Notes: generated by a model from the sequence alone, not told the origin. A stretch of DNA of 64,000 nt from Bryobacter sp. (GCA_022843605.1 JALHNI010000020.1:1-64000), one strand, 5' to 3'. Positions 11,146 through 25,759 are shown, counted from the stretch's first letter. Made by a program: numbers and translations.

Positions 11146-11862
11146 TTAGCGCTTACTGGCTTTTGTAACCGCCACTTCGTAGAACCCCACCGGGGCGGCG
11201 GCGCCCGCCGAGTCCAGCGCCAGCAACTCCAGGCGCAGCAAACCGTCCGGAAGGTCTCGGGCCTCCACCGTCACCCGTAGCGAAGACTCCGGCCAGCCCC
11301 GTCCCTCTCGCACCAACAATACCTTTTCCGACGCACTCAACACCCGCACCCGGTAGCCACTGGCCGGTTCCGGCGCCACCTCAAAGCGCAGTTCCACGCG
11401 TGCCACGTCCGAGCCAATCTCCAGGCGTAGCGCCGCGTCATTTCCACGAGTCGTGCCGCGCGGCAAGGTCAAGCTCACTTGTCTGGCTTCCAACACTGGC
11501 TGCATCTTTGCCTTGGGCCCCAGCCAGAACCATCCCGCTCCAGCCGTCAGCAGCACTGCGGCCGCAGCTTCCAGCCACCAGAGACCCCGCCGGCGCGGGC
11601 GAGTCTTCGCCATCAGCGCCCGGGCCACCGCCAACCGCTCACTCTGCCCGGTTTGCTCCAGGTAACCTCGCCAGGCGCGCGCCTCTGCCTCCGGCAATTG
11701 GCCTTGAGCGAGGGCGTCGATCCGGTCGTTCTCTACTTCGCGCACCAGCGCATGAAGTTCCGAATCGACAATCAGTGCCTCGCCAATCGCCTCACGCTCA
11801 GCTCCCTCGCCCTCCCCGAGCAGATAGCGCTCAATCTCTTCCCTCGAATATTCAGGCTTCAC
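11146..11862 (-). CDS. Single-pass membrane protein, putative anti-sigma factor
   Basis: This 238-aa protein is encoded 15 bases after a sigma-factor gene. It has a cytoplasmic helical region of ~90 residues (EIERYLLGEGEGAEREAIGEAL), an RPRRRG stop-transfer cluster, one membrane helix (about 94-114, LWWLEAAAAVLLTAGAGWFWL) and a ~120-residue beta-rich outer domain. The layout fits a membrane anti-sigma factor. The N-terminal region lacks the H-x3-C-x2-C zinc motif of classical ZAS anti-sigmas, so the assignment rests on position and topology. The start is GTG at 11862; no strong ribosome-binding site was seen, so translation may be coupled to the sigma gene. Confidence 0.65.
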   Translation of the reverse strand: MKPEYSREEIERYLLGEGEGAEREAIGEALIVDSELHALVREVENDRIDALAQGQLPEAEARAWRGYLEQTGQSERLAVARALMAKTRPRRRGLWWLEAAAAVLLTAGAGWFWLGPKAKMQPVLEARQVSLTLPRGTTRGNDAALRLEIGSDVARVELRFEVAPEPASGYRVRVLSASEKVLLVREGRGWPESSLRVTVEARDLPDGLLRLELLALDSAGAAAPVGFYEVAVTKASKR

Positions 11863-11877
11863 AATAAAATTGGCTTC

Positions 11878-12438
11878 TCATTTCTCAGTGTCCCGAATCG
11901 CCGATTCATCACGATTGAGCCCCTGCCGCACGCACTCTTCCAGCCGCTCGCGAATCCGCAACGCCCGATTTCGCAGGGCGTTGAGACCCAGTCCCCGCTC
12001 CTCGGCCAGTTCTTTTCTTTGCTCAATCTGCCGGGTCCCGCCGTAATAACCAAGAATCAGTTGGCGATGATCGGCATCCAACTTCTCCAGACATCGTTCC
12101 AGACACGCCATGGCCCGCGCATCTTCCGCCGCTTCCGTCTCCGGCGGGATCATCTTCTTCATCGCCAATTCACGGCGTCTCAGGCGGGTCGCGGTCTCCC
12201 GAAGCAGGAGTCGCGCGACGCCGGCGCAGTAGCGCTCCACGTGGTCAATCGGCTCTCCGTCACTCAGTTTGCGGGCCACCCGGTTCAGCGTCTCATCCGC
12301 CAGATCCTCGGGCTCCGCGCAGCGCTCCCATCGAAAGTAGCGGATCAGCCGCTGCCGCAGCTCCTCATAGAGGCCGCCTGCCGTCTCCCGGTCGTCCGCC
12401 AGCCGGCGAATCAATGCTTCGAGATGCGCCTTTTCCAC
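11878..12438 (-). CDS. ECF-like sigma-70 family RNA polymerase sigma factor
   Basis: This 186-aa protein has the layout of a two-domain sigma factor. A region-2-like segment (LIRYFRWERCAEPEDLADETLNR) is joined to a region-4-like helix-turn-helix block (LDADHRQLILGYYGG, then ELAEERGLGLNALRNRALRIRERL). The reading frame stays open far upstream inside the CHAT gene. I chose GTG at 12438 because it lies two bases after the CHAT stop and starts just before the first conserved helix. The gene is coupled to CHAT-TPR upstream and a putative membrane anti-sigma downstream, so it may report on the envelope system encoded by this operon. Confidence 0.82.
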   Translation of the reverse strand: MEKAHLEALIRRLADDRETAGGLYEELRQRLIRYFRWERCAEPEDLADETLNRVARKLSDGEPIDHVERYCAGVARLLLRETATRLRRRELAMKKMIPPETEAAEDARAMACLERCLEKLDADHRQLILGYYGGTRQIEQRKELAEERGLGLNALRNRALRIRERLEECVRQGLNRDESAIRDTEK

Positions 12439-12440
12439 CG

Positions 12441-15107
12441 CTAGCGCCAATCTCCCTGTAAATGGAAGCCGGCCCAGAAATAGGGGTCCTTCCAACGGGG
12501 ATCGGCGCGCATCGAGAGTTGGGCCTTGCGGAGTGCGGCCCCGGCCGCTAGACGCTCCTTTAGTAGCCCTTCGTAAAAGCGGCGCATCAGTTCCGCCGTC
12601 GCCCGATCCTCCACTTCCCATTGGCTGGCCAATACCTTCGCCGCGCCGGCATAGAGAAAGCCCCGCGTCAGGCTCATGGCTCCCTCGCCGTTCAGCTCAG
12701 CGCCCACAGCCGTGCTGCAGCCACTCAACACCACCAACTGCGCCGCCAGCCGCAAGTTGTAGATTTCGTACAAGCGCAAATGACCATTCCGAGGCCGGCC
12801 CTGCGCGTCCACCTGCGAAAAGATCACCGCCGACAACTCCGGCCTCGAAGCATCCACCGTGGCGTGCGTCGCCAGATGCACGATCGAGCTCTCCCGAATG
12901 GCCGCCTGGTCCATCAGGCTCCGCGTCGCCTCCAGTCCGGTCCATTGGATGGCCGTCCCTGCCGGCGCCAGCTTCAGAATCTCCGCAGCCTCAATCCTCG
13001 AAAAGTGCAGCCGCCCGTAGTCGCTCTTCCGTTCGGACGTCAGGAAGTCGTTGCTGCCCTTCAGCCGTGGATCGCTCGCGTCGAACACCGGGTCGGCTAC
13101 GACGCTCAGCTTCTGTTTCGCCGTCGGCCGTACCGTTGCCCGTAGCCCCACCAGCGTCGCGGCCGAGGGCAACTCAACCACCTCAAAACGGTCGAGCGTG
13201 TTCCCCAAGGCCTGAAAGCTCAAATGGTCAAGCGGCGCATCCGGCACCACCACCAGGCGCGAAATGCCTGGCATGGCTCCCAGTGGCGCAATCAGGAGCC
13301 GGTGGAGTTCTCCTGACGCCACGGCATCGCTGGCCCTTTTCGCGATCGACGTCCGCAGTCGCGCCACCAACGCTTCCACCATCTTCCGCTTGGGCATGCG
13401 CACGGCGCGCAGACGGTTTCGCGTCAGCACCCAGGCCCAGCCGCCTTCATCATCGAGGGCATACTCCACCAGCGCGGTCCGTGCGTCCGGTATCTGCCGT
13501 TGAATCGCTTCGATCGACGCGACCGTCCCGGCATTCACGGCGCGATCGGCATGCAGCTTGCGCCATTGCTCAAAAAGCCCATCCAGGTTCCTTCGCGCTT
13601 CCAGCACCGCCGGACCGGGAGCCCCGCCGCTCAGGCGCTGCAGCCGTTGCGCCTGCGTATGAATCTCGCGAGTGAGTGCTCGTTCCCGAGCCACCCACGT
13701 CTGATCCTCGGCGCGTGTTTCGCGTGCCGCCAGCACCCGATCCAGCAGTAGCCTCGCCCGGCTCCGCTCGCTCATCGCGAAAGCGGCGCGCTCGTCCTTC
13801 AGCGCCATCAACAGCGAGATCGCCTCCCGATAGACGCGCTGCTGCGTCGCAAAAAATGCCCCTCGAAGTTCCGGACTCACCACGCCTGCGCGCAATCCTT
13901 CAATCAAGTCGACCGCCGCTTCCAGTGCGGGACGCGCGTCGTTCAGCCGTCCTGACTGCCGCAATGCCCGCGCCCGTACCGCCTCTGAGGCGGCCTGCCC
14001 CAAGCGGTTTCCAACCGCCTCCTGCATCTCTACCGCTTCGGCAGCCACCCGCACTGCTTCGTCCGTCCGTCCGGCTTTCAGGTACGCTTCCGCCAGTTTC
14101 TCGAGTGTCTGGGCTTCGCCGTACCGGTCGCCCAGTTGACGCTTGATCGCCAGCGACTCCTCATAAAGCGCCAGGTCACCGGTTAAGCCGGCCAAGTTGT
14201 GGAGCACATATGCCTGCCCGCGACGGTCGTTCTTCTCTCGCAGGACAGCCAGAGCCTTCTCGAATGAGTCCTTCCCTCCGGCGCCTTCAACCATGCCCAG
14301 GTTGCTCAACGTATACGCTTCACCCACCGCATCCCCGAGCTTGCGCCAAATGCCCAGCGCCTGCGCGTATCGCGAGCGCGCTTGCCGCACCTCACCGAGC
14401 GACGCGTACATCAGCCCGATGCTGTTCAGCGTGTCCGCCTCGCCCCGCGGGCTCTTCAACTTTCGCCAGATTCCCAAGGCCTCTTCGTAAGCCAGCAACG
14501 CCTTCTCCACCTCTCCCCAGGTGTATTCGACGCTCGCCAGCCCAAAGAGTGTGTAGGCTACTCCTATTTCGTCGGCGATCTCCTTGCGGATGGCCATCGC
14601 CTCGCGATACGCCGACAGCGCTTCCGGGTTCCGGCCTAAGGACCATTGCGTTGAACCGAGGTTGTGCAACGCCAGAGCCTGTTCGAAACGTTCACCCGTC
14701 ACCCGGCGTATAGCTAGCGCGCGCTCGTAGTGCTCAATGCCCTCGTTGGCTGCCCCCGTAGCGACCAGAACGCGCGCTATTCCGTAATGCAGGCCCGCCT
14801 TCAGCTTGTTGTCGCCGCGGTCCCCCAGTGTGGCCAGGCCGGCCCGAAACTCGTCGAGCGCCTTTGCACGGTCCCCCGTCAGATCGAGCAACTGTCCCAG
14901 CCGCCAGCGGGCTCTTGCTTCCGGCTCAGCTTCGTGGACTTGTTTCCACAGCTCCGCTGCCCGCGCATAGAGCGGGATCGCCTCCCGGTGCGTTTTTGCC
15001 TCCAGCCGTAGCTTCTCCGCTGCGCTGAAAAGTTCCGGAGCGCTTTCCTGAGCGAACCCGAAACTGGCGAACAGCAGAACCACTAGACGGCAGCCAGCCT
15101 GCTGCAT
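12441..15107 (-). CDS. Secreted TPR-CHAT protein (caspase-like peptidase)
   Basis: This 888-aa protein has a Sec-type signal (residues ~1-19, ending FGFAQ). About ten tetratricopeptide repeats span residues ~30-390 (for example LHNLGSTQWSLGRNPEALSAYREAMAI). After a helical linker comes a C-terminal CHAT domain (~540-888). The predicted catalytic dyad is intact: H748 in HLATHATVD and C797 in VLSGCSTA. CHAT proteins are caspase/separase-fold cysteine peptidases often found in signalling or conflict systems. Here the signal sequence puts the protease outside the cytoplasm, and the gene sits between a Ser/Thr kinase (22-base gap) and a sigma factor (2-base gap). Confidence 0.9.
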   Translation of the reverse strand: MQQAGCRLVVLLFASFGFAQESAPELFSAAEKLRLEAKTHREAIPLYARAAELWKQVHEAEPEARARWRLGQLLDLTGDRAKALDEFRAGLATLGDRGDNKLKAGLHYGIARVLVATGAANEGIEHYERALAIRRVTGERFEQALALHNLGSTQWSLGRNPEALSAYREAMAIRKEIADEIGVAYTLFGLASVEYTWGEVEKALLAYEEALGIWRKLKSPRGEADTLNSIGLMYASLGEVRQARSRYAQALGIWRKLGDAVGEAYTLSNLGMVEGAGGKDSFEKALAVLREKNDRRGQAYVLHNLAGLTGDLALYEESLAIKRQLGDRYGEAQTLEKLAEAYLKAGRTDEAVRVAAEAVEMQEAVGNRLGQAASEAVRARALRQSGRLNDARPALEAAVDLIEGLRAGVVSPELRGAFFATQQRVYREAISLLMALKDERAAFAMSERSRARLLLDRVLAARETRAEDQTWVARERALTREIHTQAQRLQRLSGGAPGPAVLEARRNLDGLFEQWRKLHADRAVNAGTVASIEAIQRQIPDARTALVEYALDDEGGWAWVLTRNRLRAVRMPKRKMVEALVARLRTSIAKRASDAVASGELHRLLIAPLGAMPGISRLVVVPDAPLDHLSFQALGNTLDRFEVVELPSAATLVGLRATVRPTAKQKLSVVADPVFDASDPRLKGSNDFLTSERKSDYGRLHFSRIEAAEILKLAPAGTAIQWTGLEATRSLMDQAAIRESSIVHLATHATVDASRPELSAVIFSQVDAQGRPRNGHLRLYEIYNLRLAAQLVVLSGCSTAVGAELNGEGAMSLTRGFLYAGAAKVLASQWEVEDRATAELMRRFYEGLLKERLAAGAALRKAQLSMRADPRWKDPYFWAGFHLQGDWR

Positions 15108-15129
15108 GAGCCCCAGTATATCGGGCTGC

Positions 15130-17424
15130 CTAGCGAATCAGCTTCTGAAAAACGCTGACGATGCGGTCCGGGCTCTCCCGCGCCACGAAGTTGAAGTTCC
15201 GGCCCGACTTCAGCTTGATGTGAAAGGCCTTCATCCCCTGAATGGCCATGCGGTTCATCTTCACCTCGTCGATGTCCGAAAGTGGCGCATCAAAACTATC
15301 GCCGGCAAAGCTCGTTTCGTAGCGCACCGTCTGGTCCACCACGCGCAGCACGCCCCGGCAGTGGTTCCACTGGCGATCGTAAGGATTCAGCCCTTTCAGG
15401 CCCTGATGATCGTGAGAGACAGGCCACGAGTAGCGAGTGGGTCCCGGCAACGGTTGCGGTAACGGCTGAGGCAAAGGCTGCGGCAGCGCCTGGGTGTTCT
15501 GATGCTGCTGATCCGGTGGCTGCGGAAAGGGCAGGGGACTCTGAACGCGCCGGACCTCCACCAGAGCCGTAGCCGTAACGGCCCGTCCGCCCGCGTCCAC
15601 CGCCGTCAGCACGTAGCGGGCATTCTGACGTGGCTGCACTCGAGTCTCGCCCTGCAGCGCCACCGGACCCGGTTCAGGCGAAATCGAAACCTTCGCTGCC
15701 CCGCTCACTGACCAGCTCAAGCTCACCGGTTGACCGGCTTCGACACTCGCCGGCTGCGCCTGAAACGAATTGATCCGGGGACCCGTCACCGGATCGACCC
15801 TTGGCACCAACACCGTCGAATTGCCCGACGGCGAAAAGCCCTTCGACTCCACGCTCAGCAGCACCTGAGCCTGCTGCGTCGCACCATCCGGGCCCACTGC
15901 CTCAAGCGTATAGGTCTTCGATTCGCCCGGCCGCAACTCCTGGCTCCCACTCGCCGCCACGCTTTGTCCGTCCAGCTTCACGTTCGAGCCGTTCTGCACC
16001 TCCCAACTGAGCAAAGCCAATTCGCCCGCCTTGACGCGGTCCGGCGTCACCTCCAGCCGCGAAATGCGGGCCCCTTCGGGAGAAACGACGCTCACCTCCA
16101 GCTTGCGCCGCACCACCTCGCCGCTGCGGGGACGGGCAATCAGCGTATAGGTCGTCGTGTCCGACGGGGAGACATTGGCGCTGCCCGACGGACCTTGCTT
16201 CCCAACCCCTTCAATCTCGACACTCTCCGCATCCGCCACATCCCAGGACAGCTTCACCGCCTCGCCGCGCTTCACGCTTTGCGGCTCCGCTCGAAACGCC
16301 TTAATCTGCGGCACGGCGCTAGGGCGCAGGAAAAGCCAGAGCGCTGCCAGCAACAACAGGCCACCCAGGGCGCCCGCCAGCACCAGCCAGTTCCTGGACG
16401 GTGGCACCGGCGCAGGCACTGGTAACGGTAAAGGCAGCGGCGCCGGCTTCGCCTCGTCCTTGCGCTGAAACGCCCGCTCCATCTCCAGCATGTCCGGATA
16501 GCGATCTTCCACGCGCAACGCCAAGCCCTTCATCAGTACCGCTTCCGTGCCGGGTGGCATGGCGATCCCCAAAGCGCTTGGCGGCGCCAGAGTGTCGGAC
16601 TTAAAACGGTCCGGCGCCGCCGGCGGCATGGTCCCGGTGATCGCCCGGTAGAAGGTCGCCGCAGTCGCGTAAACGTCGGTCCAGGGCCCCTGCTGGCCCT
16701 TGCTCTCGTACTGCTCAAACGGAGCGTAGCCGTGCTTCAGAATCACCGACAGATTCAGGCTCTTCTGCCCCATGGCCTGCCGGGCCGCCCCGAAGTCGAT
16801 CACCTTCACATGACCGCTGCGCACCAGAAAGATGTTGTCCGCGCTGATGTCGCGATGCAGCACCCCCGCCGCGTGAACCTCCCGCAGCGCGTCCATCACC
16901 CACAGCAAATACTTGAGCGCCTGCTCCGCCGGGATCTTGCCGCCCTGCTGCTCAAGGTGCTTGTCCAGCGTGATTCCGTCCAGAAACTCGAGGATCATGT
17001 AAGCCGTGTCATTCTCGGCGAAGAAGTCCTCCACGCGCACAATGTTCGGATGATCCTGAAACTTGCGCACCAGGCGCGCTTCGTCCAGAAAGCGCTCGAG
17101 CCCCCACTGATAGTCCTTTTTGAAGCTCGCCGACGCCGGAAAGACGCTCGGCTCGCCGCGCATCCGCACGGCCATTCCCGAAGGAAAATACTCCTTCACC
17201 GCGACCTTCGAGTCGAGCACCAGATCCCTACCGATATACGTGATGCCGAAGCCGCCATCCCCCAGCACCCGGCCAACCAGATAACGCTCCTTCAGGACGA
17301 TGCCAGGAGCCAGATGGAGCAGGGAATCGACCGCCGTACCCGCCACATAGCCGCATTTCGCGCACACCGCCGCCCCGCCGCTCAACTCCATGCACCCCAG
17401 ACAATACTGCGCCGCGTTCTCCAT
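15130..17424 (-). CDS. Membrane Ser/Thr protein kinase with N-terminal zinc ribbon, Ig-like repeats and PH-like C-terminus
   Basis: This is a 764-aa Hanks-type kinase. A zinc ribbon (C8, C11, C21, C24) precedes the kinase domain: glycine loop 55-60 (GDGGFG), K77 (VAVKE), HRD 190-192 and DFG 210-212, so it should be active. A transmembrane helix follows at about 345-365. The outer part has about three Ig/bacterial-surface-type beta repeats (each containing LSW and TYTL-like strands), a PLPQ proline repeat, and a ~90-residue C-terminal region resembling a bacterial PH-like domain (VVDQTVRYETSFAGDSF, then IKLKSGRNFNFVA). It lies 3 bases downstream of a PP2C gene, giving a kinase-phosphatase pair. 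Confidence 0.93.
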   Translation of the reverse strand: MENAAQYCLGCMELSGGAAVCAKCGYVAGTAVDSLLHLAPGIVLKERYLVGRVLGDGGFGITYIGRDLVLDSKVAVKEYFPSGMAVRMRGEPSVFPASASFKKDYQWGLERFLDEARLVRKFQDHPNIVRVEDFFAENDTAYMILEFLDGITLDKHLEQQGGKIPAEQALKYLLWVMDALREVHAAGVLHRDISADNIFLVRSGHVKVIDFGAARQAMGQKSLNLSVILKHGYAPFEQYESKGQQGPWTDVYATAATFYRAITGTMPPAAPDRFKSDTLAPPSALGIAMPPGTEAVLMKGLALRVEDRYPDMLEMERAFQRKDEAKPAPLPLPLPVPAPVPPSRNWLVLAGALGGLLLLAALWLFLRPSAVPQIKAFRAEPQSVKRGEAVKLSWDVADAESVEIEGVGKQGPSGSANVSPSDTTTYTLIARPRSGEVVRRKLEVSVVSPEGARISRLEVTPDRVKAGELALLSWEVQNGSNVKLDGQSVAASGSQELRPGESKTYTLEAVGPDGATQQAQVLLSVESKGFSPSGNSTVLVPRVDPVTGPRINSFQAQPASVEAGQPVSLSWSVSGAAKVSISPEPGPVALQGETRVQPRQNARYVLTAVDAGGRAVTATALVEVRRVQSPLPFPQPPDQQHQNTQALPQPLPQPLPQPLPGPTRYSWPVSHDHQGLKGLNPYDRQWNHCRGVLRVVDQTVRYETSFAGDSFDAPLSDIDEVKMNRMAIQGMKAFHIKLKSGRNFNFVARESPDRIVSVFQKLIR
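15445..15486 (-). repeat. Tandem Pro-Gln-Pro-Leu coding repeat
   Basis: On the minus strand 42 bases encode three and a half copies of the LPQP unit in the kinase gene, between the last Ig-like repeat and the PH-like end. Synonymous codons vary between copies, so the repeat looks maintained at protein level and probably forms a stiff polyproline spacer. Confidence 0.75.
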
Positions 17425-17427
17425 CTT

Positions 17428-18141
17428 TCAAACCCTCCAGACGGCAATCGCCGACTCGTTGTCCGCCTCGCCGCTGGCCATCCGGGCCAGCCGCTCTCTC
17501 AGCCGCAATTGCATTCCGCCCAGCCATTCCGACGCTCCCCGTGCTCGAACCCGTTCGGCCTCCATCTCGAGTTCCGTCACTAGTTCCCAGAAACCGTCGC
17601 TGGCCAGCAGGAACGCATCCCCGCTCTCCACCGTCGCCGCCCCGGCCGACATCTCCGCCGTCAGACCGCCCAGGCTTTTCAGCAATCGGTTCCGGTCCGG
17701 ATGCTGCCGGATCTCGGCCGCGCTTATCCGGCCTGCGTCCACCAACGTTTGCGGCACACTATGGTCCAACGTCTGTTCGACGATCGCCCCGGCCCGAAAC
17801 CGGTAGAGCCGCGAGTCGCCGCTGTACACCCACCGCGCCTCCTGCCCGTTCGAAGCCAGCAGCACCAGCGTGGTGCGCATCGCTTTCCACTCGGGACGCT
17901 CCACCTGCTTCGCACGCACCGCTTCATTGGCCGCCTCGCCCAACTGCATAAGATCCGGGTTCTGGCCAAACCCCTCGGCGATCGCCCTTAGGGCGGCTCC
18001 GGAGGCGATCTCGCCACCGCCCATGCCGCCCAAGCCGTCGGCCAGCGCCCAGCCGTACCATTCACCAGCAGCGCCGCTCCACACCGCGTCCTGATTCGTC
18101 TCCCGGCCCCCGAGTTCGCAGATCTGCGCCGTCTCAAACAT
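17428..18141 (-). CDS. PP2C-family Ser/Thr protein phosphatase (soluble)
   Basis: This 237-aa metal-dependent phosphatase should reverse phosphorylation by the adjacent kinase. The PP2C motifs are all present: GRETNQDAV near the N-terminus, ALADGLGGMGGGE, YSGDSRLYRF, LASDGFWE and the terminal DNESAIAV. These supply the aspartates expected for the two-metal centre. There is no membrane segment. It is coupled by 3-base gaps to the trypsin-FHA gene upstream and the kinase gene downstream. It is the shorter of two PP2C proteins in this operon and is not a close copy of the other. Confidence 0.93.
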   Translation of the reverse strand: MFETAQICELGGRETNQDAVWSGAAGEWYGWALADGLGGMGGGEIASGAALRAIAEGFGQNPDLMQLGEAANEAVRAKQVERPEWKAMRTTLVLLASNGQEARWVYSGDSRLYRFRAGAIVEQTLDHSVPQTLVDAGRISAAEIRQHPDRNRLLKSLGGLTAEMSAGAATVESGDAFLLASDGFWELVTELEMEAERVRARGASEWLGGMQLRLRERLARMASGEADNESAIAVWRV

Positions 18142-18144
18142 CGC

Positions 18145-19317
18145 CTATCCGTTCCCCAACTCGAACTCGTTCTCTCGCGTGGCCAGATAGAAGCGATCCC
18201 CGCGCTTCAGTTCCTTCGCCTGCCCGGCCGGGAGGCGGGTCCCGTTAGCCAGAAACGTCCCATTGCTCGACCCCAGATCCTCCAGCCACACCCGCCCGGT
18301 CGACGCTTCGTGCCGCACCTGGCAGTGCCGCTTCGACACGCCCGCGGCATCCTCCGGATACACCAACTGAGCCATCTTCGCGTCGCGCCCCAGCGCGAGC
18401 GTCACACCTTCCAGTGCGATATTCTGCCCGGCGTAGTAGCCCGAAACGCCCCGCAAGGCTGGCCGCACCACCGGCGATGGTGCGGAAGCGGCCAGGGCTC
18501 CCTGTCTTCGGGTCGCCAGCATGCGCCGCACCGCTACCACGAGCACACCCGCCAACAGCCCCACGAGCCAACCCGGAATCGTGGGTCCAGCGGACGTCAC
18601 CTCCCCGATTCCACAACGGCTGCTTTCCACCTCGGCCGCAATCTTCAGACCTTTCAATTCGTCCAGCAACTCCGCACTCTCGATCGCGAAGTTCATGCCG
18701 TCGGCCAGTGGCACGCGCTCTTCCTTGCCGTCCGCCGTCAGCACGGAGACCAGCGCCTTCATCGAATTGATTCCGATGACGCGCCCGCAATCATCGAACA
18801 GCGGGCCGCCGGAATTGCCCGGATTCGCCGCCGCCGTCGTCTGGATCAGGCGCTCCCCAGCGCTCGGCCCCCTCTTATTGCTCGCAAAGAATTTGCTGAT
18901 CACGCCCTGCGTGATCGTCGGGATGTGCATCCCCTCCGCCCCGGCCAGGCTCTTGGCCGCGCCGGGATAGCCGATCGCCCACACCGCTTGCCCGTCCCGC
19001 AACTGCGGTCGCCCCCCGAAGCGCACCGTAGGCCCTCCGAGCGCCTTCTGCACCTCCAGTACAGCCAGATCCTTGTCCTTGTTGAACCACCGCACCTTGG
19101 CTTCGCTGGTCAGGCGGTTCTCATTCATCACCCAGATTTGCGACTCGCCCCGCATGCAGCAGACGTGCCAATTCGTCGCCACCAGACGCTCGCCGATCCA
19201 GAAGCCGCTCCCCGAACTCTTCTCCAGCAGCACCAGCACCGTACTGCTCTTCATCTGCGCCATCGGCGGCTCAGCCGCCAAACGCAGCGCAATCGCCAGT
19301 AGCGTGAACCACCTCAC
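18145..19317 (-). CDS. Membrane trypsin-like serine protease fused to a C-terminal FHA domain
   Basis: This 390-aa protein has a signal/anchor (residues 1-16). A trypsin-like domain follows with an intact triad: H51 (TNWHVC), D83 (KDKDLAVL) and S169 (NPGNSGGPLF). After one membrane helix (about 248-263) and a basic segment, residues ~300-390 form an FHA domain (LALGRD, VSKRHCQV, LGSSNGTF). Topology predicts a periplasmic protease and a cytoplasmic phosphothreonine reader, which would link envelope proteolysis to the kinase/PP2C pair. It shares 4-base ATGA coupling with the upstream PP2C-TM gene. The fusion order is the striking part. Confidence 0.92.
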   Translation of the reverse strand: MRWFTLLAIALRLAAEPPMAQMKSSTVLVLLEKSSGSGFWIGERLVATNWHVCCMRGESQIWVMNENRLTSEAKVRWFNKDKDLAVLEVQKALGGPTVRFGGRPQLRDGQAVWAIGYPGAAKSLAGAEGMHIPTITQGVISKFFASNKRGPSAGERLIQTTAAANPGNSGGPLFDDCGRVIGINSMKALVSVLTADGKEERVPLADGMNFAIESAELLDELKGLKIAAEVESSRCGIGEVTSAGPTIPGWLVGLLAGVLVVAVRRMLATRRQGALAASAPSPVVRPALRGVSGYYAGQNIALEGVTLALGRDAKMAQLVYPEDAAGVSKRHCQVRHEASTGRVWLEDLGSSNGTFLANGTRLPAGQAKELKRGDRFYLATRENEFELGNG

Positions 19318-20357
19318 CTCTTCCCGCCTCCCGATGCAGGAGGCGAAACCTCGGGTTCGTCGATTGGAGGCGGGGCGGCTGTTTCGGGTTCCGGATTCGC
19401 CGCTTCATGGATCTCCGGCAGCTGACTCGTGTCAAACCGCTCCGAACCTTTCTGGCGCCCCGGCGCGGCCACCACCACCGGCTTCGGCTCGGAAAGCATC
19501 ACCCACCAGGCCGCGCACACGCCCGCCACCAGCAGCGCTCCCGCCACCATCACCTGAATCCCACGTCCCGCTCGCTTCACGGTCACCGGCGGCAGCACCT
19601 CAACCACGGAAGCTTCCTGGGCAGCCTCCAGCATCAGCACCGTGATGTTGTCCTGGTCCGGATCGTCCACCGCCAGAGCCGCCGCCACCAACTGCTCGCA
19701 GTATTCCTGGGCGTCGCCCGCACGCGCAGGGAAATTCCCGGGCGCAATACTCTTGAAGAGTCCATCGCTCGCCAGCAGCAGCCCATCGCCCACCGCCACC
19801 GCCATCGGCCGCAAACTGCGATCCACCTGCTCCAGCCGTTGTGCCCCCAGATAGCTCGTCAACGACTCCCGTTGCGGATCGCTCTGGGCCGCTTCGCGCG
19901 TCAGTGCCCCGGCCAGTACCTGCGCGTCCAGTTCCGCTGCGTAAATGTGCGCGCGATTCAGTTGAGTCAGCTCTCCCGCACGTCGCAGAAACAAGGCGCT
20001 GTCGCCCACCGAGATCCAGTAGAGCTCCGTTTCGCGCAGCACTGCGGCCACCAGCGTCGTGCCCCCGTCGTCCGCCACCACCTGGCGCACCGCATCCTGA
20101 GCCGCGTTCAAGGCCCGTGTCAAAGCATCCGGAACGCTCTCCTCCGCTGCCTTGGTCTGGTAGGTATCGAGAAACGCCTTCACCGCCGCCCGGCTGGCCA
20201 GTTCCCCATGCTCCAGGCCACCCATACCGTCGGCCAGCACCGCGACGAACCCCGCGTGCGCACAGAACTCGGTATCGGCTGGATTCGAGAAGCCGAAAGC
20301 GTCCTGCTGGCCTTCCCTTCGCCCGATATGCTGCGCGTTGCCGAATGCGTACTTCAT
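19314..20357 (-). CDS. PP2C-family phosphatase with C-terminal membrane helix
   Basis: This 347-aa protein has an N-terminal PP2C domain (GRREGQQDAF, LADGMGGLEHGE, ISVGDSALF, LASDGLFKS, DPDQDNITVLML), with all metal-binding acids present. A membrane helix follows at about 268-290 (VMVAGALLVAGVCAAWWVML), then a ~50-residue low-complexity, proline- and acid-rich tail ending beyond the membrane. The catalytic domain should be cytoplasmic. It overlaps both flanking genes by 4 bases, so expression is tightly coupled to the FHA protein and the trypsin-FHA protease. Two phosphatases for one kinase suggests different localisations or targets. Confidence 0.92.
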   Translation of the reverse strand: MKYAFGNAQHIGRREGQQDAFGFSNPADTEFCAHAGFVAVLADGMGGLEHGELASRAAVKAFLDTYQTKAAEESVPDALTRALNAAQDAVRQVVADDGGTTLVAAVLRETELYWISVGDSALFLRRAGELTQLNRAHIYAAELDAQVLAGALTREAAQSDPQRESLTSYLGAQRLEQVDRSLRPMAVAVGDGLLLASDGLFKSIAPGNFPARAGDAQEYCEQLVAAALAVDDPDQDNITVLMLEAAQEASVVEVLPPVTVKRAGRGIQVMVAGALLVAGVCAAWWVMLSEPKPVVVAAPGRQKGSERFDTSQLPEIHEAANPEPETAAPPPIDEPEVSPPASGGGKR

Positions 20358-20923
20358 GCGTCCCAGCGAAAGCCTTCACGCACGAAAGCCACCAGCACGA
20401 GTTGCGACTGGCCCACCTCCATCACGTCGCCCGCCCGTATCTCCATCGGCGAATGGACCACCTCGCCGTTGCAATAGACGAGTCCGCTCGCTTCGCCCGG
20501 GGCCAGCCAAAAGCTGCCCCGCTTGGGTTCAAACGTCACCACTGCATGTCTGTCGCGCGAGACGCTCTCATCTCCCGGAATGCTCACGTCCATCGCCGGT
20601 GACCGGCCCACGAAGTTCTTGGCCGCATGCAAACGGAAGTCCTGCCCGCGATCCGGCCCTTCGATACAAACCAGCCATCCCACCACCGGCTCCACTTTGC
20701 CGCTGCCGCGCATCAGGGGCACGGTCTTCCCGCCCACCGGCGTCGGCGTCGACGGCATCGCCATCGCCGCCTGCCCGGCCAGCGGCGGATCCGGCGCCGC
20801 TGGCCGCAACGGCACAGTCTTGCCACCCGGAATCAGCGGCGCCGCCTCAGAGGGCTTCGGGCACCAGGGACACGCATGGTGCTTTGCCGGGTCATAGAAA
20901 TGTCCATCCGCGCAGCGAATCAT
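20354..20923 (-). CDS. FHA-domain protein with N-terminal zinc-binding motif
   Basis: This 189-aa protein starts with a probable zinc site (RCADGHFYDPAKHHACPWC). A proline-rich linker follows, carrying the GGKTVPL heptad twice; its threonines are candidate phosphosites. The C-terminal FHA domain is at about 95-185 (FVGRSPAMDVSIPGDESVSRDRHAVV). FHA domains bind phosphothreonine, so the protein could be an adaptor for the operon kinase. I chose ATG at 20923 because it overlaps the upstream stop by 4 bases and immediately precedes the zinc motif; the open frame upstream of it lies inside the stator gene. Confidence 0.9.
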   Translation of the reverse strand: MIRCADGHFYDPAKHHACPWCPKPSEAAPLIPGGKTVPLRPAAPDPPLAGQAAMAMPSTPTPVGGKTVPLMRGSGKVEPVVGWLVCIEGPDRGQDFRLHAAKNFVGRSPAMDVSIPGDESVSRDRHAVVTFEPKRGSFWLAPGEASGLVYCNGEVVHSPMEIRAGDVMEVGQSQLVLVAFVREGFRWDA

Positions 20924-21735
20924 TCGCCCGCTCCTTTCTTCGCAGCTGGCTTCTGGATCGCCGCCAACTCCTTCGCAAAACTTTCTTTGAACTCCGGAGA
21001 CGGCTCGAACTTTACGCTGTAATCCCGGGCCGTGAATAACGTACCCACCCACGTTCCCGTGCGCTCCTGCGAAAGACTCGCCGTTGGCATGTAGAACAGT
21101 TTTCCGTCGAAGAGGTAGTATCCGCTCACCGACACCGGACTGCCGTTGCCGTTGCTCCCGAAGTACTTGTAATAGACCTTCTGCTCCCCGCCCGGCGAAC
21201 CATCTCGCGCCGACCAAAGCTCTGTCCCCGGCCCCTGCCGCACCTCCGTCCGGATCTCGTCGCTGAACGTCCGGTCCTGCTTCTTACTCGGGTCCATGCG
21301 CGGCGTCAATTCGCCCTTGGAGGTCTTAATGTTCACGCCCTCCAGGAAAAGGTCCACGTCGTGCGAACTCCGCCATGCCATGCCCACCACCAGTGGATTA
21401 CGCGCTTCCAACTTGCGCGCCTTCTGCTGCGCTTGTTCCAGTTCCTGCTTCGCCCGATTCAGATCGCCTTGCTGCTTCTGGATGCGCCGCTGCAGGTCAT
21501 CCATCTGCTGCATCAGCTTCTGTCCATCGGCGCTCTTGCTCAGCTTCTCCCGGAGAGACCGCAACTCCTCCTCCATCGCCGTGATGTCCTGCTGCGCCTC
21601 TTTCGCATTCGGACCGGTTGGCTTCCAGTAAGGAAACAGCACGAGTGTCATAAAGCAAAACACGCCGAGAGCACCGCACAAAATGTCCAGCAGCGACATG
21701 TTGAAGATGTTGATCTCCCTTTGCCTCGCGCGCAT
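20920..21735 (-). CDS. MotB/ExbD-like stator protein with periplasmic coiled coil
   Basis: This 271-aa single-pass protein begins with EINIFNMSLLDIL followed by ~18 hydrophobic residues. The arrangement mirrors ExbD/MotB, where an aspartate at the start of the only helix carries the ion; here it is D17. A long coiled coil (about 43-115) is followed by a beta-rich domain (about 120-250) containing DVDLFLEGV and VSGYYLFDG, reminiscent of DUF2135-type sandwiches. There is no OmpA-type peptidoglycan domain. The MotA/ExbB-like gene lies 3 bases upstream. It is inferred to be the rod of an ion-driven motor reaching into the periplasm. Confidence 0.78.
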   Translation of the reverse strand: MRARQREINIFNMSLLDILCGALGVFCFMTLVLFPYWKPTGPNAKEAQQDITAMEEELRSLREKLSKSADGQKLMQQMDDLQRRIQKQQGDLNRAKQELEQAQQKARKLEARNPLVVGMAWRSSHDVDLFLEGVNIKTSKGELTPRMDPSKKQDRTFSDEIRTEVRQGPGTELWSARDGSPGGEQKVYYKYFGSNGNGSPVSVSGYYLFDGKLFYMPTASLSQERTGTWVGTLFTARDYSVKFEPSPEFKESFAKELAAIQKPAAKKGAGE

Positions 21736-21738
21736 CGC

Positions 21739-22572
21739 CTAGTTCCCCACGTACAGCCGGTTGATCAGGTTCCGCAGCGTATAGTCGCCCGCCAAATTCA
21801 CCGCGCGCTCCTCCTGCTCCTGCACCAGTTGCAGCAGGAACACCAGTAGTGCGCTTTGCGACAACGCCACCATCGTGCAATCGAAGCCCACGGCGAGCGT
21901 CTTGGCCATCTCCTTCAGGTCGAGTTCCTTCGCCGGATCGCCGGCTTGCGCCAGCGACGCCCCCAGTCCGAAGACCGTTCCGATGAAGCCCAACGTCGGC
22001 ACCAGCCAGGCGACGAAGCGCACCATGCCGTACTGCAGATCCACCCGGTGCGCGAGCAATTCCAGGCTGCTCGTCATCACTCCTGACGCCTGCTCAACGG
22101 AGCGGCTGGATTGAAACTGCAAAATCGACAGGTTGATCAGCGACGCTACAAAACCGCTGTCGCGGTCGAATTGCCCCATCACCCGCCGCCGGATCGGCCC
22201 CAGATCCTTCGGCGTCAACACCGTGTGCTCATCTTCGGGCAGAAATCCGGCCTTCAGCAGTGCTTCCTCGCGCGCCCCTGCCCGCCAGCGCACAAACAAC
22301 TCGCCCAGACCCAGAAAGAAGACAACATGCATAATGTTCTGAATTGTTAGCGGATAGGGGAAGTGCAACGACGGACGGTCGAACAGCAGGACGGTGAGGC
22401 GCCCTTCGGGAATCAGGCTCGCCGCGCCAATGAACAGCAGCGAGACGCCGATTGCCGCGAAGGCTGCCAGCCTTCGGTCAGGCCGGTACCAGAATCCATC
22501 GAGTTGCAGTCGCACGGGCGGCCCGGGTGTGCCCTGTGAAGGCATCGTCGGTGTCATCTGAGTCGGGTTCAT
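21739..22572 (-). CDS. MotA/TolQ/ExbB-family proton channel protein
   Basis: This 277-aa membrane protein has four predicted helices: ~35-54, ~77-95, ~183-207 and ~225-250. The last two match the ExbB/TolQ/MotA channel core, with P192 and GFIGTVFGLG in helix 3 and GFDCTMVALSQSALLV in helix 4, where T233 lies at the position of the conserved ExbB threonine. A charged cytoplasmic loop lies between helices 2 and 3. With the downstream stator gene it should form a proton- or sodium-driven rotor-like unit. No TonB, TolA, FliG or OmpA-type partner is nearby. Confidence 0.86.
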   Translation of the reverse strand: MNPTQMTPTMPSQGTPGPPVRLQLDGFWYRPDRRLAAFAAIGVSLLFIGAASLIPEGRLTVLLFDRPSLHFPYPLTIQNIMHVVFFLGLGELFVRWRAGAREEALLKAGFLPEDEHTVLTPKDLGPIRRRVMGQFDRDSGFVASLINLSILQFQSSRSVEQASGVMTSSLELLAHRVDLQYGMVRFVAWLVPTLGFIGTVFGLGASLAQAGDPAKELDLKEMAKTLAVGFDCTMVALSQSALLVFLLQLVQEQEERAVNLAGDYTLRNLINRLYVGN

Positions 22573-22580
22573 AGTTTCCT

Positions 22581-22988
22581 TTAGGCTTGGCAGAACGGAC
22601 AGACGCCCCCCACGGGCTTGACGGCTCCGCAGCCGCAGCGCACCAGGCGTTGGCTACGTACCAGAGGGGCCGACTTCTGACGCAGAATGTCCAGCAGATC
22701 CGCCACGGCGATCTCCACTGACCCGAAGCGCAGCGTATCCGCCGCGCTCACTTGCTCCGACTGAATCGCCCGCGCCACACCGCCGCGCACCACAAAGGTG
22801 CCATTGCTGCTGCCGCGATCCGTCACCGACAGCCGGCCCTCTCCCAGGTCACCCAGCACGGCGTGCAGGCGGCTCACCGAGGTGTCGGCAATCGGAATAT
22901 CAGCCGCGGCATCCCGGCCCACCGAATAGCTGCGCAATGTTCTGGTTCCTGTCCCTTCTCCATCAAGTGACCGTGTTGCCAAAAACAT
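22581..22988 (-). CDS. Small FHA-domain protein with C-terminal zinc ribbon
   Basis: This 135-aa protein is the first gene of the minus-strand operon. The FHA domain spans residues ~20-95 (SVGRDAAADIPI, SVSRLHAVL, DRGSSNGTFVV). The tail forms a zinc ribbon with paired cysteines, RCGCG and CPFC. It probably reads phosphothreonine and docks to partners. I chose ATG at 22988, with an adjacent in-frame GTG at 22991. No clear Shine-Dalgarno was seen. The upstream 85 bases are shared with a divergent gene and must hold the operon promoter, but no convincing -10/-35 pair could be assigned. Confidence 0.88.
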   Translation of the reverse strand: MFLATRSLDGEGTGTRTLRSYSVGRDAAADIPIADTSVSRLHAVLGDLGEGRLSVTDRGSSNGTFVVRGGVARAIQSEQVSAADTLRFGSVEIAVADLLDILRQKSAPLVRSQRLVRCGCGAVKPVGGVCPFCQA

Positions 22989-23076
22989 CACGCAGAATTT
23001 GCGGCTTAACGAAACTTTGCAGGCCTTCGCGCCACTTCCTCGCCCCCCTCGCGTAAACTAGGGCGCGAAGGAACCT

Positions 23077-23421: not shown

Positions 23422-23923
23422 TCAGTTGCCAGGCAACGCCAACGTCCGATACCAATTGAAGTTGACGGCATCGACCCCGTGCGCTTGTAGCTGGTGGCAG
23501 AGAGTTAAGTCATCGGTAAAGACGAGGATCCTGTTGTGCCGCGAAAAGGCAACTGTCGGTTAACCCGAGTCGCCAGAACAAGTCGTGATGCGCGGGAACG
23601 GAACTCGGATAGTACTTTTCCTCCAGCAGGTCGGTGACCGCCGTCAAGACCTCGAAGAAGTGGTAGTCGCCCCTGGGCGCTAGGTTGCTCACCTCGGTGA
23701 GCACGTTGGGCGTTGTGTAGATCTTGGTAAAGCAGCCGCTCTCGATCATTGTTTCCAGGCTTTCGAAGTCGGACTGCGTATAGGCCTGCGCACGCTTCGA
23801 AGTCGCCAGTTGTTCAGGGCCACACTTACCGATCACGTACACGAACAGCAGGTTGGTATCGAGAAGGATTCCCTTCTTCCGATACTTGTGGAACAACTCC
23901 AATCCCTCCTCCGAACTGATCAC
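23422..23923 (-). pseudogene. PIN-domain protein disrupted by a frameshift
   Basis: The reading frame starting at 23923 encodes a PIN-like N-terminus (GILLDTNLLFVYVIG) and continues to LTDSCLFAA, then runs out at a stop at 23510. In the +1-shifted frame the sequence continues sensibly as NRILVFTDDLTLCHQLQAHG and on to a stop at 23422-23424, restoring the TDD acidic motif typical of the end of a PIN nuclease. The shift is near 23540 (codons TTC GCG G/CAC AAC). It is a true mutation, a sequencing error or, less likely, recoding. Intact, it would be a ~166-aa RNase-like protein. It is coupled to the upstream partner by a 4-base overlap. Confidence 0.82.
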
Positions 23924-24201
23924 AGTTGACGGATTCTCACGTACTTCATCGATCCGGTCTGGGCATCAATACCGACGCTCTTGTAGACTCGCGGATCTTT
24001 CTTGAACATTGACGAGAATTGCACCGCCGGAGGGTCGCTAGGCAGGATTGTCGACGGTGGCGGAAATGCGCTGAAAGTCACTTTCCAGAGCTGCTCGTCC
24101 TCCGCCAACTCAACTTCTTCGAGTCTCATATCGGTGTAACCATTGAGAACTAACGTTGCTGCGTCCTGCGCTGACTTAATCGCGGAAGGGGCATCGATCA
24201 T
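23920..24201 (-). CDS. Small protein paired with the PIN-domain gene
   Basis: This protein of about 93 residues (105 if the GTG at 24237 is used) overlaps the PIN gene by 4 bases, so the two form a two-gene unit. The ATG at 24201 avoids overlapping the comM 3' end, while the GTG would overlap it by 17 bases; neither has a clear Shine-Dalgarno. The sequence (DAATLVLNGYTDMRLEEVEL, then LWKVTFSAFPPPS) looks like a small alpha-beta domain with no obvious DNA-binding motif. Position suggests an antitoxin or accessory protein, but nothing in the sequence proves it. Confidence 0.6.
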   Translation of the reverse strand: MIDAPSAIKSAQDAATLVLNGYTDMRLEEVELAEDEQLWKVTFSAFPPPSTILPSDPPAVQFSSMFKKDPRVYKSVGIDAQTGSMKYVRIRQL

Positions 24202-24220
24202 ATGGCCATCATACCCGGTG

Positions 24221-25759
24221 CTAAGCTCCCCAGCCACGATCCAGACTCCGGTACTGCACCGCCTCGGCCAGATGCTTGGCCTCCACCCGCTCGCTTCGCC
24301 CCAGGTCGGCGACCGTCCGCGCCACCTTCAGAATCCGGTCATGCGCCCGAGCCGATAACGCCATCTTCCGGATCGCCAGTTCCAAGGTCCGCTCGCCCGC
24401 CGCATCCAGCGCACAGACCTCCCGTAGCCGCGCCGGTGGAATATAGGCGTTATAGAACCCTCTCGCCAGTTGGATCGCCCGCGTCGCCTCCACCCGCTGC
24501 CGTATCTCGGCCGACGAAGCGCCCTCGTTCTTCGACCGCAGGTCCTGATACGGCACCGCCGGCACGTCGATCTGAATATCAATGCGGTCCAGCAACGGGC
24601 CGCTGATCTTCCCGAGATAGCGCTGAATAATGGCTCCCGTGCAACGGCACTCCCGGCTCGCATCTCCCCAAAAACCGCAAGGACAAGGGTTCATCGCACA
24701 CACCAACATCACCCGGGCAGGGAAGACCAGCGACATGTTGGACCGGGCCAACGACACCTGTCCGTCCTCCAGCGGCTGCCTCAACAACTCAAGCACATGC
24801 CTCGAGAACTCCGGCAGTTCGTCCAGAAACAGGATGCCGTTGTGGGCCAAACTCACCTCGCCCGGCTTCGGCGTCCCCGACCCGCCGCCGATCAACCCCG
24901 CATCCGAGACCGCATGGTGCGGAGCCCGGTACGGGCGTTCCACCAGCAGGCCCGCCCCGGGCGGCAACACCCCCGCCACCGAATGCACCTGCGTCGTCTC
25001 CAGCGCCTCCGGAAAGGTCAGCAACGGCAGAATCGTGCAGAGACGCTTGGCCAGCATCGTCTTGCCCGACCCTGGCGGACCAATCATCAGCGCGTTGTGA
25101 ACCCCCGCTGCCGCCACCTCCAGCGCCCGCTTCGCCGACGCTTGGCCCCGCACGTCGCGGAAGTCGTGGGCGTCGGCGTTCGTCTCGTCCGACCGCGTCG
25201 ACCTCGGCACGCCGCTCGGCACCGCAAAATCCGGATTCGCCAGCAACTTCACCACTTCCGCCAGATGCTCCGCCGGATACACCTTCACTCCTTCCACCAC
25301 CGCCGCCTCGTGCGCATTCTCCGCCGGCACGATCAGATGGGGAATGCCGTGCCGCCTCGCACAAACGGCAATCGACAGCGCGCCGCGCACCGGCCGGATC
25401 TTTCCGTCCAAAGACAACTCCCCCACAATCAGCGGGTCAAACGGCTCCCGCGCAATGTGATTCCGGAAAGCACCCATCGCTCCCAGGACGCCCAAAGCCA
25501 TCGGCAGGTCGAAGCTCGCGCCTTCTTTCCGTACGTTCGCCGGAGCCAGGTTGATCGTCACCGCGCGGCTGGGATAGCCAAAACCCGAATGCACCAACGC
25601 TGACTTAATCCGCTCTCGGCTCTCCCGCACCGCCGTATCGGGCAACCCCACTGTCACAAAATCGCGGTCTGACCCGTGCGAGTGCAGGTCAACTTCAATG
25701 TCGATCGGATGCGCGTCAATCCCAAACACGGCCGCGCTCTTCATGCGGTACAGGCTCAT
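24221..25759 (-). CDS. comM: YifB/ComM-family Mg-chelatase-like AAA+ ATPase
   Basis: This 512-aa protein is about the normal length for ComM. An N-terminal S5/Lon-type domain (~1-170, VGLPDTAVRESRERIKSAL) is followed by the Mg-chelatase AAA+ core with Walker A GPPGSGKTMLAKRL (~215-228) and Walker B ILFLDELPEF. The C-terminal Mg_chelatase_C region carries SARAHDRILKVARTVADL. ComM is a hexameric helicase aiding branch migration during natural transformation in Vibrio. By family, this gene may serve DNA uptake or recombination, although no other competence gene is in the window. Confidence 0.94.
   Translation of the reverse strand: MSLYRMKSAAVFGIDAHPIDIEVDLHSHGSDRDFVTVGLPDTAVRESRERIKSALVHSGFGYPSRAVTINLAPANVRKEGASFDLPMALGVLGAMGAFRNHIAREPFDPLIVGELSLDGKIRPVRGALSIAVCARRHGIPHLIVPAENAHEAAVVEGVKVYPAEHLAEVVKLLANPDFAVPSGVPRSTRSDETNADAHDFRDVRGQASAKRALEVAAAGVHNALMIGPPGSGKTMLAKRLCTILPLLTFPEALETTQVHSVAGVLPPGAGLLVERPYRAPHHAVSDAGLIGGGSGTPKPGEVSLAHNGILFLDELPEFSRHVLELLRQPLEDGQVSLARSNMSLVFPARVMLVCAMNPCPCGFWGDASRECRCTGAIIQRYLGKISGPLLDRIDIQIDVPAVPYQDLRSKNEGASSAEIRQRVEATRAIQLARGFYNAYIPPARLREVCALDAAGERTLELAIRKMALSARAHDRILKVARTVADLGRSERVEAKHLAEAVQYRSLDRGWGA

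Follow-up and report, generated by a model that had tools for sequence, protein, structure and literature searches.

Among published systems, the motor described here is closest to TolQ-like motors whose partners are Asp-helix-vWA proteins of unknown function (PMC12204202, Mol Biol Evol 2025). Likenesses are also found with other known systems. In Zorya, the ZorAB proteins combine a MotA/ExbB-type channel with an Asp-helix stator and are joined to other proteins. The type VI secretion system (T6SS) is a precedent for a membrane machine regulated by a kinase and an FHA protein (PMC3953482), and in its threonine phosphorylation pathway (PpkA-Fha-PppA) a kinase, a PP2C and an FHA protein govern an envelope machine. 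The Agl-Glt gliding machinery, in turn, brings together a TolQR-type motor and an FHA membrane protein.

Here we analyse a cluster of eleven genes in the window (the whole stretch of DNA analysed, 64,000 nucleotides from a 6.9 Mb genome), eight of which form a module with an ExbB/TolQ-type channel. The window pair consists of a TolQ-like channel and an Asp-helix partner, without tolR. It shares with the motors of PMC12204202 the TolQ/ExbB-like channel, the proton-binding Asp helix and the lack of tolR, and several relatives of the window stator have a vWA domain. In contrast, the arm of the window stator itself is a TerD-like sandwich (a borderline assignment) and not vWA, while FHA proteins, a kinase, PP2C or a tethered protease are not mentioned in the available part of that article.

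By the features tested, the eight-gene module is not Zorya. The 277-aa channel ends directly after its last long helix (219-268), with no long ZorA tail, and there was no PADLOC match to ZorA at E up to 1. The stator has no OmpA match, and its model has a coiled coil and a beta-sandwich instead of a peptidoglycan-binding domain; ZorB1 reached only 13.4 bits (E 0.0085, PADLOC) against the operon proteins, and no match to the ZorC, ZorD or ZorE effectors was found among the ten operon proteins scanned with PADLOC. No ZorA structure was present among the best 50 Foldseek matches for the channel model, an absence that excludes nothing. The likeness to the T6SS pathway is limited to the control logic, as no T6SS family is present among the eleven genes, and the window FHA proteins score 23-28 bits with the TagH model, against a cut-off of 120. 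For Agl-Glt, the GltG score in the window is 36 against a cut-off of 650, and a kinase, PP2C or tethered protease are not among the parts listed in the available portion of its description (PMC3169522).

Gene order and the separate CHAT-sigma cassette

We confirmed eleven ORFs in the window, on the minus strand from 22991 to 11146 (Table 1). The inter-gene spacings, in the 5′ to 3′ direction, are 8, 3, −4, −4, −4, 3, 3, 22, 2 and 15 bases, which bears out the initial annotation of eleven genes on one strand with gaps of at most 22 bases and three 4-base overlaps. Its domain assignments were examined with Pfam and NCBIfam models, which agreed for FHA, MotA_ExbB, the two PP2Cs, Trypsin_2, Pkinase and CHAT with TPR; the putative ExbD/MotB-like stator had no ExbD or OmpA/MotB match and the putative anti-sigma factor no anti-sigma match in Pfam, and the start of the sigma gene was corrected. 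The operon is composed of two modules. Module 1 (15130-22991, eight genes) encodes, in order, an FHA-zinc ribbon protein, the ExbB/TolQ-type channel, the Asp-helix stator, a zinc ribbon-FHA protein, a PP2C, a trypsin-TM-FHA protein, a second PP2C and a zinc ribbon kinase. Module 2 (11146-15107) is a separate cassette of three genes, for a TPR-CHAT protein, a sigma factor and a TM protein.

Table 1 Genes of the minus-strand operon in the window, from first to last, with the evidence for each assignment
Feature	Coordinates	Strand	Evidence
FHA protein with C-terminal zinc ribbon (RCGCGAVK..CPFC), 136 aa, first gene	22581..22991	-	NCBIfam FHA-family matches
ExbB/TolQ/MotA-type channel, 277 aa	21739..22572	-	PF01618 34.6 bits; AlphaFold pLDDT 91; Foldseek; conservation
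Stator: N-terminal TM helix with Asp17, coiled coil 44-110, periplasmic beta-sandwich 112-245	20920..21735	-	Alignment; model pLDDT 85
N-terminal zinc ribbon (RCADGHFYDPAKHHACPWC) and FHA, 189 aa	20354..20923	-	FHA 30.0 bits; Yop-YscD_cpl 34.6 bits; ribbon conserved
PP2C phosphatase, C-terminal TM helix, 347 aa	19314..20357	-	PP2C_2 60.8 bits
Signal peptide-like start, trypsin-like protease (H51, D83, S169), TM helix, cytoplasmic FHA	18145..19317	-	Trypsin_2 94.9 bits; FHA 49.2 bits
Soluble PP2C phosphatase, 237 aa	17428..18141	-	PP2C_2 30.7 bits; Stp1-type 120 bits
Zinc ribbon, Ser/Thr kinase (K77, HRD 190-192, DFG 210-212), TM helix, predicted extracytoplasmic Ig-like repeats	15130..17424	-	Pkinase 110.6 bits
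Separate cassette: signal peptide-like start, TPR repeats, CHAT (HLATH, SGCS)	12441..15107	-	CHAT 201.8 bits
Separate cassette: divergent ECF-like sigma factor, 186 aa	11878..12438	-	TIGR02989 57.9 bits, under its cut-off
Separate cassette: single-TM protein, candidate anti-sigma	11146..11862	-	Homologues 3′ of sigma gene in L101, L104

The likeliest start of the sigma gene is a GTG at 12438, immediately 3′ of the CHAT stop codon. The encoded protein (186 aa) matches the sigma-70 ECF models only under their cut-offs (57.9 bits for TIGR02989), and the third protein, with one TM helix, has no anti-sigma match in Pfam.

An earlier reading of the locus took all eleven genes as a single system, and a device of this kind would have the CHAT protein and the sigma factor as output of the motor. 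The two modules are on the same strand, with a gap of 22 bases, and their junction is common to a close relative, L021, in which the three genes are 61-64% identical to those of the window, so that it has persisted. However, the window and L021 are the only cases in which the trio lies 3′ of the core; it is absent from all other mapped core clusters, and occurs alone, as a cassette without the motor, in genomes G004, G005 and G024. In motor-free genomes the CHAT, sigma and TM genes are consecutive at L101 and L104, and CHAT and sigma genes are found together at L102 and L109. The single eleven-gene system is thus not supported, and we regard a joint device with this output as decidedly unlikely.

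For the cassette itself, the Csx29-Csx30-CASP-sigma proteins of Craspase (PMC10028731) offer an analogy, since in both cases a TPR-CHAT protease is accompanied by two further proteins, one of them an ECF-like sigma factor. By this analogy, the CHAT protease would perhaps cleave the TM protein, and in this way free the sigma factor. In contrast to Craspase, the window CHAT protein begins with a signal peptide-like sequence and the third protein is anchored in the membrane; no Cas7-11 or CRISPR genes are found among the eleven proteins.

Channel and stator of the proposed motor

The PF01618 match of the channel (34.6 bits against a cut-off of 22.9) places it in the MotA/TolQ/ExbB superfamily. 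Its AlphaFold model (pLDDT 91) matches ExbB, TolQ and MotA structures with a Foldseek probability of 1.00 (E about 1e-3), and a profile search led to PomA/MotA/TolQ (E 0.01-0.03). Three residues of the pore helices, Thr193, Thr199 and Thr233, are invariant in the alignment, and we take them to correspond to the pore Thr ring described for MotA/TolQ/ExbB-type motors. A further residue, Thr117 in the loop LPEDxxTVL, was considered as a phosphosite and dropped because it is too variable (Ser/Thr in 32 of 40).

The stator has no match to ExbD, OmpA/MotB or vWA in Pfam. Its identity is given by the N-terminal helix, the sole TM helix of the protein, with an Asp that is invariant in the family (76/76 members). 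In the model (pLDDT 85), this helix is followed by a coiled coil and then by a beta-sandwich. The list of folds for this arm is led by TerD-family structures (Z 7.9 and 7.6, Foldseek E 3e-3), with borderline values of a kind that can be background, and one relative of the stator matches DUF2135 (E 9e-4). The partner has a vWA fold in relatives such as L008/L086, and the arm looks vWA-like in Latescibacterota, Gemmatimonadota and some Gammaproteobacteria (L008 by Pfam, the others by MIDAS-like motifs read from the sequence).

The TolQ/ExbB-like fold of the channel and the vWA or beta-sandwich arms in the periplasm would also suit a machine that transmits force in gliding, secretion or the maintenance of the outer membrane. 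In such a machine the FHA proteins and kinase would be regulators, on the pattern of Agl-Glt gliding or type VI secretion, and the proteases would process only the machine's own parts. TolQ proteins with Asp-helix-vWA partners are proposed as force transducers (PMC12204202), and in Myxococcus the FHA protein GltG acts with AglRQS (PMC3169522). Nevertheless, clustering of the flanking genes revealed no recurrent outer-membrane, secretion or TonB/TolA partner beside the clusters, and we consider such a role unlikely.

Several variants of the channel-stator pair were observed. Binatota-type clusters (L031, L032, L033, L034, L042) have two different tandem stator genes and no trypsin-FHA gene. A minimal form is found in Alphaproteobacteria (L060, L061, L062, L066, L068, L070, L071, L079; Methylobacterium, Xanthobacter, Bosea), with ExbB, a coiled-coil stator of 470-670 aa, frequently an FHA-TM protein, and no kinase. 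The Gemmatimonadota ExbB loci L087-L099 have proline-rich vWA-like stators, some of them divergently oriented, with two additional gene families recurrent alongside. The sole plasmid match is an ExbB relative with 40% identity, at 163318-164061 of the conjugative Rhizobium leguminosarum plasmid NZ_CP125637.1.

Phosphorylation proteins and tethered proteases

The FHA domains of two of the FHA proteins score 30-49 bits with Pfam. The C-terminal ribbon pattern is present in 26/41 upstream FHA proteins, and the ribbons of the upstream FHA protein, the downstream FHA protein and the kinase are all three found in the window's clade and none of them in the other clade. The catalytic motifs of the kinase are invariant in all 35 aligned members (35/35), as are the metal-binding Asp residues of the PP2Cs (59/59). 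The C-terminal part of the kinase, in contrast, is variable (ankyrin, Sel1, FGE-sulfatase, nuclease-like or Ig), which suggests that the kinases of different members may respond to different inputs. A Latescibacterota cluster with several further kinases contains a trypsin-TM-kinase-ankyrin fusion of 1029 aa (L073:15629-18718).

In the alignment of the trypsin-FHA proteins (n=30), every sequence (30/30) has the FHA-site residues Gly-Arg and His, and 18 have an intact His-Asp-Ser triad. Cys177 and Cys235 of the trypsin domain are kept in nearly all aligned proteins, which is consistent with an oxidising periplasm. An M4 (thermolysin-type)-TM-FHA protein with HExxH is found only in L059, L064/L065, L084 and L086, and the trypsin is degenerate in each of them. 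M4 is thus present in 4/8 loci with a degenerate trypsin, against 0/18 of the others (26 loci; Fisher p 0.005). All four belong to one ExbB clade, and the replacement of trypsin by M4 may be one single event. Six loci have an additional vWA-TM-FHA protein, recognised in L026 and L029 by reading the sequence and in L027, L037, L056 and L058 by Pfam. On sequence comparison, the putative periplasmic output is conserved while its enzyme changes. In L025, L030, L072 and L096 only a degenerate trypsin, and no M4, was seen, so that proteolysis may not be universal across the clusters. HtrA-type proteases are present in every relative genome, where a trypsin search is therefore non-discriminating. A PP2C-M4 peptidase-FHA fusion of 1024 aa adjoins the cluster of Pseudomonas sp. 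WN033 (L084:6252-9326, minus strand).

Recurrence and proposed function of the eight-gene module

To determine how often these genes recur together, an ExbB-like protein aligned from four genomes was used to scan one genome per species, which gave 97 confirmed relatives, of which 80 were kept. The 82 loci, among them the window itself and one locus present in duplicate, were mapped with the window proteins and family profiles, and paralogues were checked by genome search. Metagenome bins are the source of most loci, many of which lie on short contigs, and phyla were assigned by record title, which is not always right. This search for conserved neighbourhoods, of the kind suggested in the initial annotation, reveals that the eight-gene set, often in the same order, is present in at least six phyla. 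All partner families (FHA, PP2C, trypsin-FHA, kinase and stator) are found in 26/82 ExbB loci, and ExbB together with FHA and PP2C in 43/82; in 203 of the 281 neighbouring same-strand core gene pairs the spacing does not exceed 30 bases. The more complete clusters belong, by record title, to Acidobacteriota, Pseudomonadota, Binatota, Latescibacterota, Gemmatimonadota, Balneolota and Rhodothermota. The phyla are intermixed in several places of the ExbB tree, which is limited by title errors and bins.

The motor is present in 4/101 relatives, and the zinc ribbon-FHA gene in 4/4 of these against 1/97 of the others (E < 1e-15), a co-retention with a chance of 1.2e-6 if genomes are treated as independent and phylogeny is ignored. 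One relative, G034, has the set split over two contigs: C70 carries the ExbB-stator pair by itself, and C27 carries FHA-FHA-PP2C-PP2C-kinase without the motor (L007 10907-12561 and L146 7051-11155), and the two FHA genes on C27 abut exactly where the motor genes are usually located in other genomes. That this genome keeps both halves apart, in a family where both are rare, points to a joint function. Together with the exchange of trypsin for M4 it supports a functional linkage from sequence alone, and argues for module 1 as one functionally linked system. Each of the domain families is common individually, as would be expected for chance neighbours or independent operons, but the ordered recurrence in at least six phyla and the co-retention when split contradict this explanation, which we regard as extremely improbable. 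ExbB-stator(-FHA) genes without a kinase occur in many loci of Alphaproteobacteria and Planctomycetota, and a G059 contig has FHA-PP2C-trypsin-kinase without the motor, which indicates that the modules can part.

In the same-genus genome G001 there is no stator, ExbB or zinc ribbon-FHA gene. Homology between G001 and the window breaks off at either edge of the block (10975 and 24225), and the two flanks are on different contigs. This patchy, accessory distribution, seen also in the 4/101 relatives, would fit a defence against phages or predators, in which a Zorya-like motor would respond to envelope damage by releasing the tethered proteases. MotAB-like motors can drive defence, as in Zorya (PMC11890865), and known defence sets include proteases and kinases. 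However, the PADLOC scan of the operon proteins gave no specific system, recurrent defence neighbours were not seen by simple clustering of the flanking genes, and there is neither a tailed ZorA nor a peptidoglycan-binding ZorB; a defence function is somewhat unlikely in our judgement. The PADLOC kinase matches (PD-T4-6, MADS6) were rejected as generic kinase matches.

Two other features of the window were recorded. A PIN-like gene with a small partner, possibly a toxin-antitoxin pair, lies at 23510-24237, between ComM and the operon. At about 42000 the GC skew changes from negative to positive; DnaA boxes are not above chance, and no dnaA was seen nearby.

From the gene content, the recurrence, the conservation of domains and active sites, the exchange of proteases and the separateness of the cassette, all obtained by computation, we propose that the genes at 15130-22991 encode one inner-membrane machine, a phospho-gated, proton-driven envelope motor that would recruit or position periplasmic proteases, a proposal to which we assign roughly even chances. 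The phosphorylation-gated, ion-driven device with periplasmic proteolysis of the initial annotation fits the comparative evidence and is strengthened by it, but not as an eleven-gene unit. The ExbB/TolQ-like channel and the Asp-helix stator would form the ion-driven motor, with a periplasmic arm made of a coiled coil that ends in a beta-sandwich. The kinase, with one TM anchor and a variable C-terminal part, would phosphorylate threonines of the motor or partner proteins, and the FHA-zinc ribbon proteins would bind these phosphothreonines in the cytoplasm, linking the trypsin-TM-FHA protein with the kinase and the motor. Once the kinase is active, the FHA tail of the trypsin-TM-FHA protein would bring the periplasmic protease to the motor, and the two PP2Cs would reset the machine. 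We infer this motor activity, phospho-dependent docking and protease recruitment, as well as the substrate and purpose: the output would be envelope proteolysis, with phosphorylation setting its timing and the force of the motor possibly helping.

No published description of the eight-gene cluster was found in open-access full text. More tentatively, the module may represent a categorically new class of envelope machine, in which an ion motor, a Ser/Thr phospho-switch operating through FHA adaptors, and interchangeable FHA-tailed proteases would act together in destroying envelope or invading proteins. If true, this would, to our knowledge, be the first TolQ/ExbB-class motor combined with a complete kinase-phosphatase-FHA switch and membrane-tethered proteases, and it would join three fields: force-transducing motors, Hanks-type signalling and envelope proteolysis.
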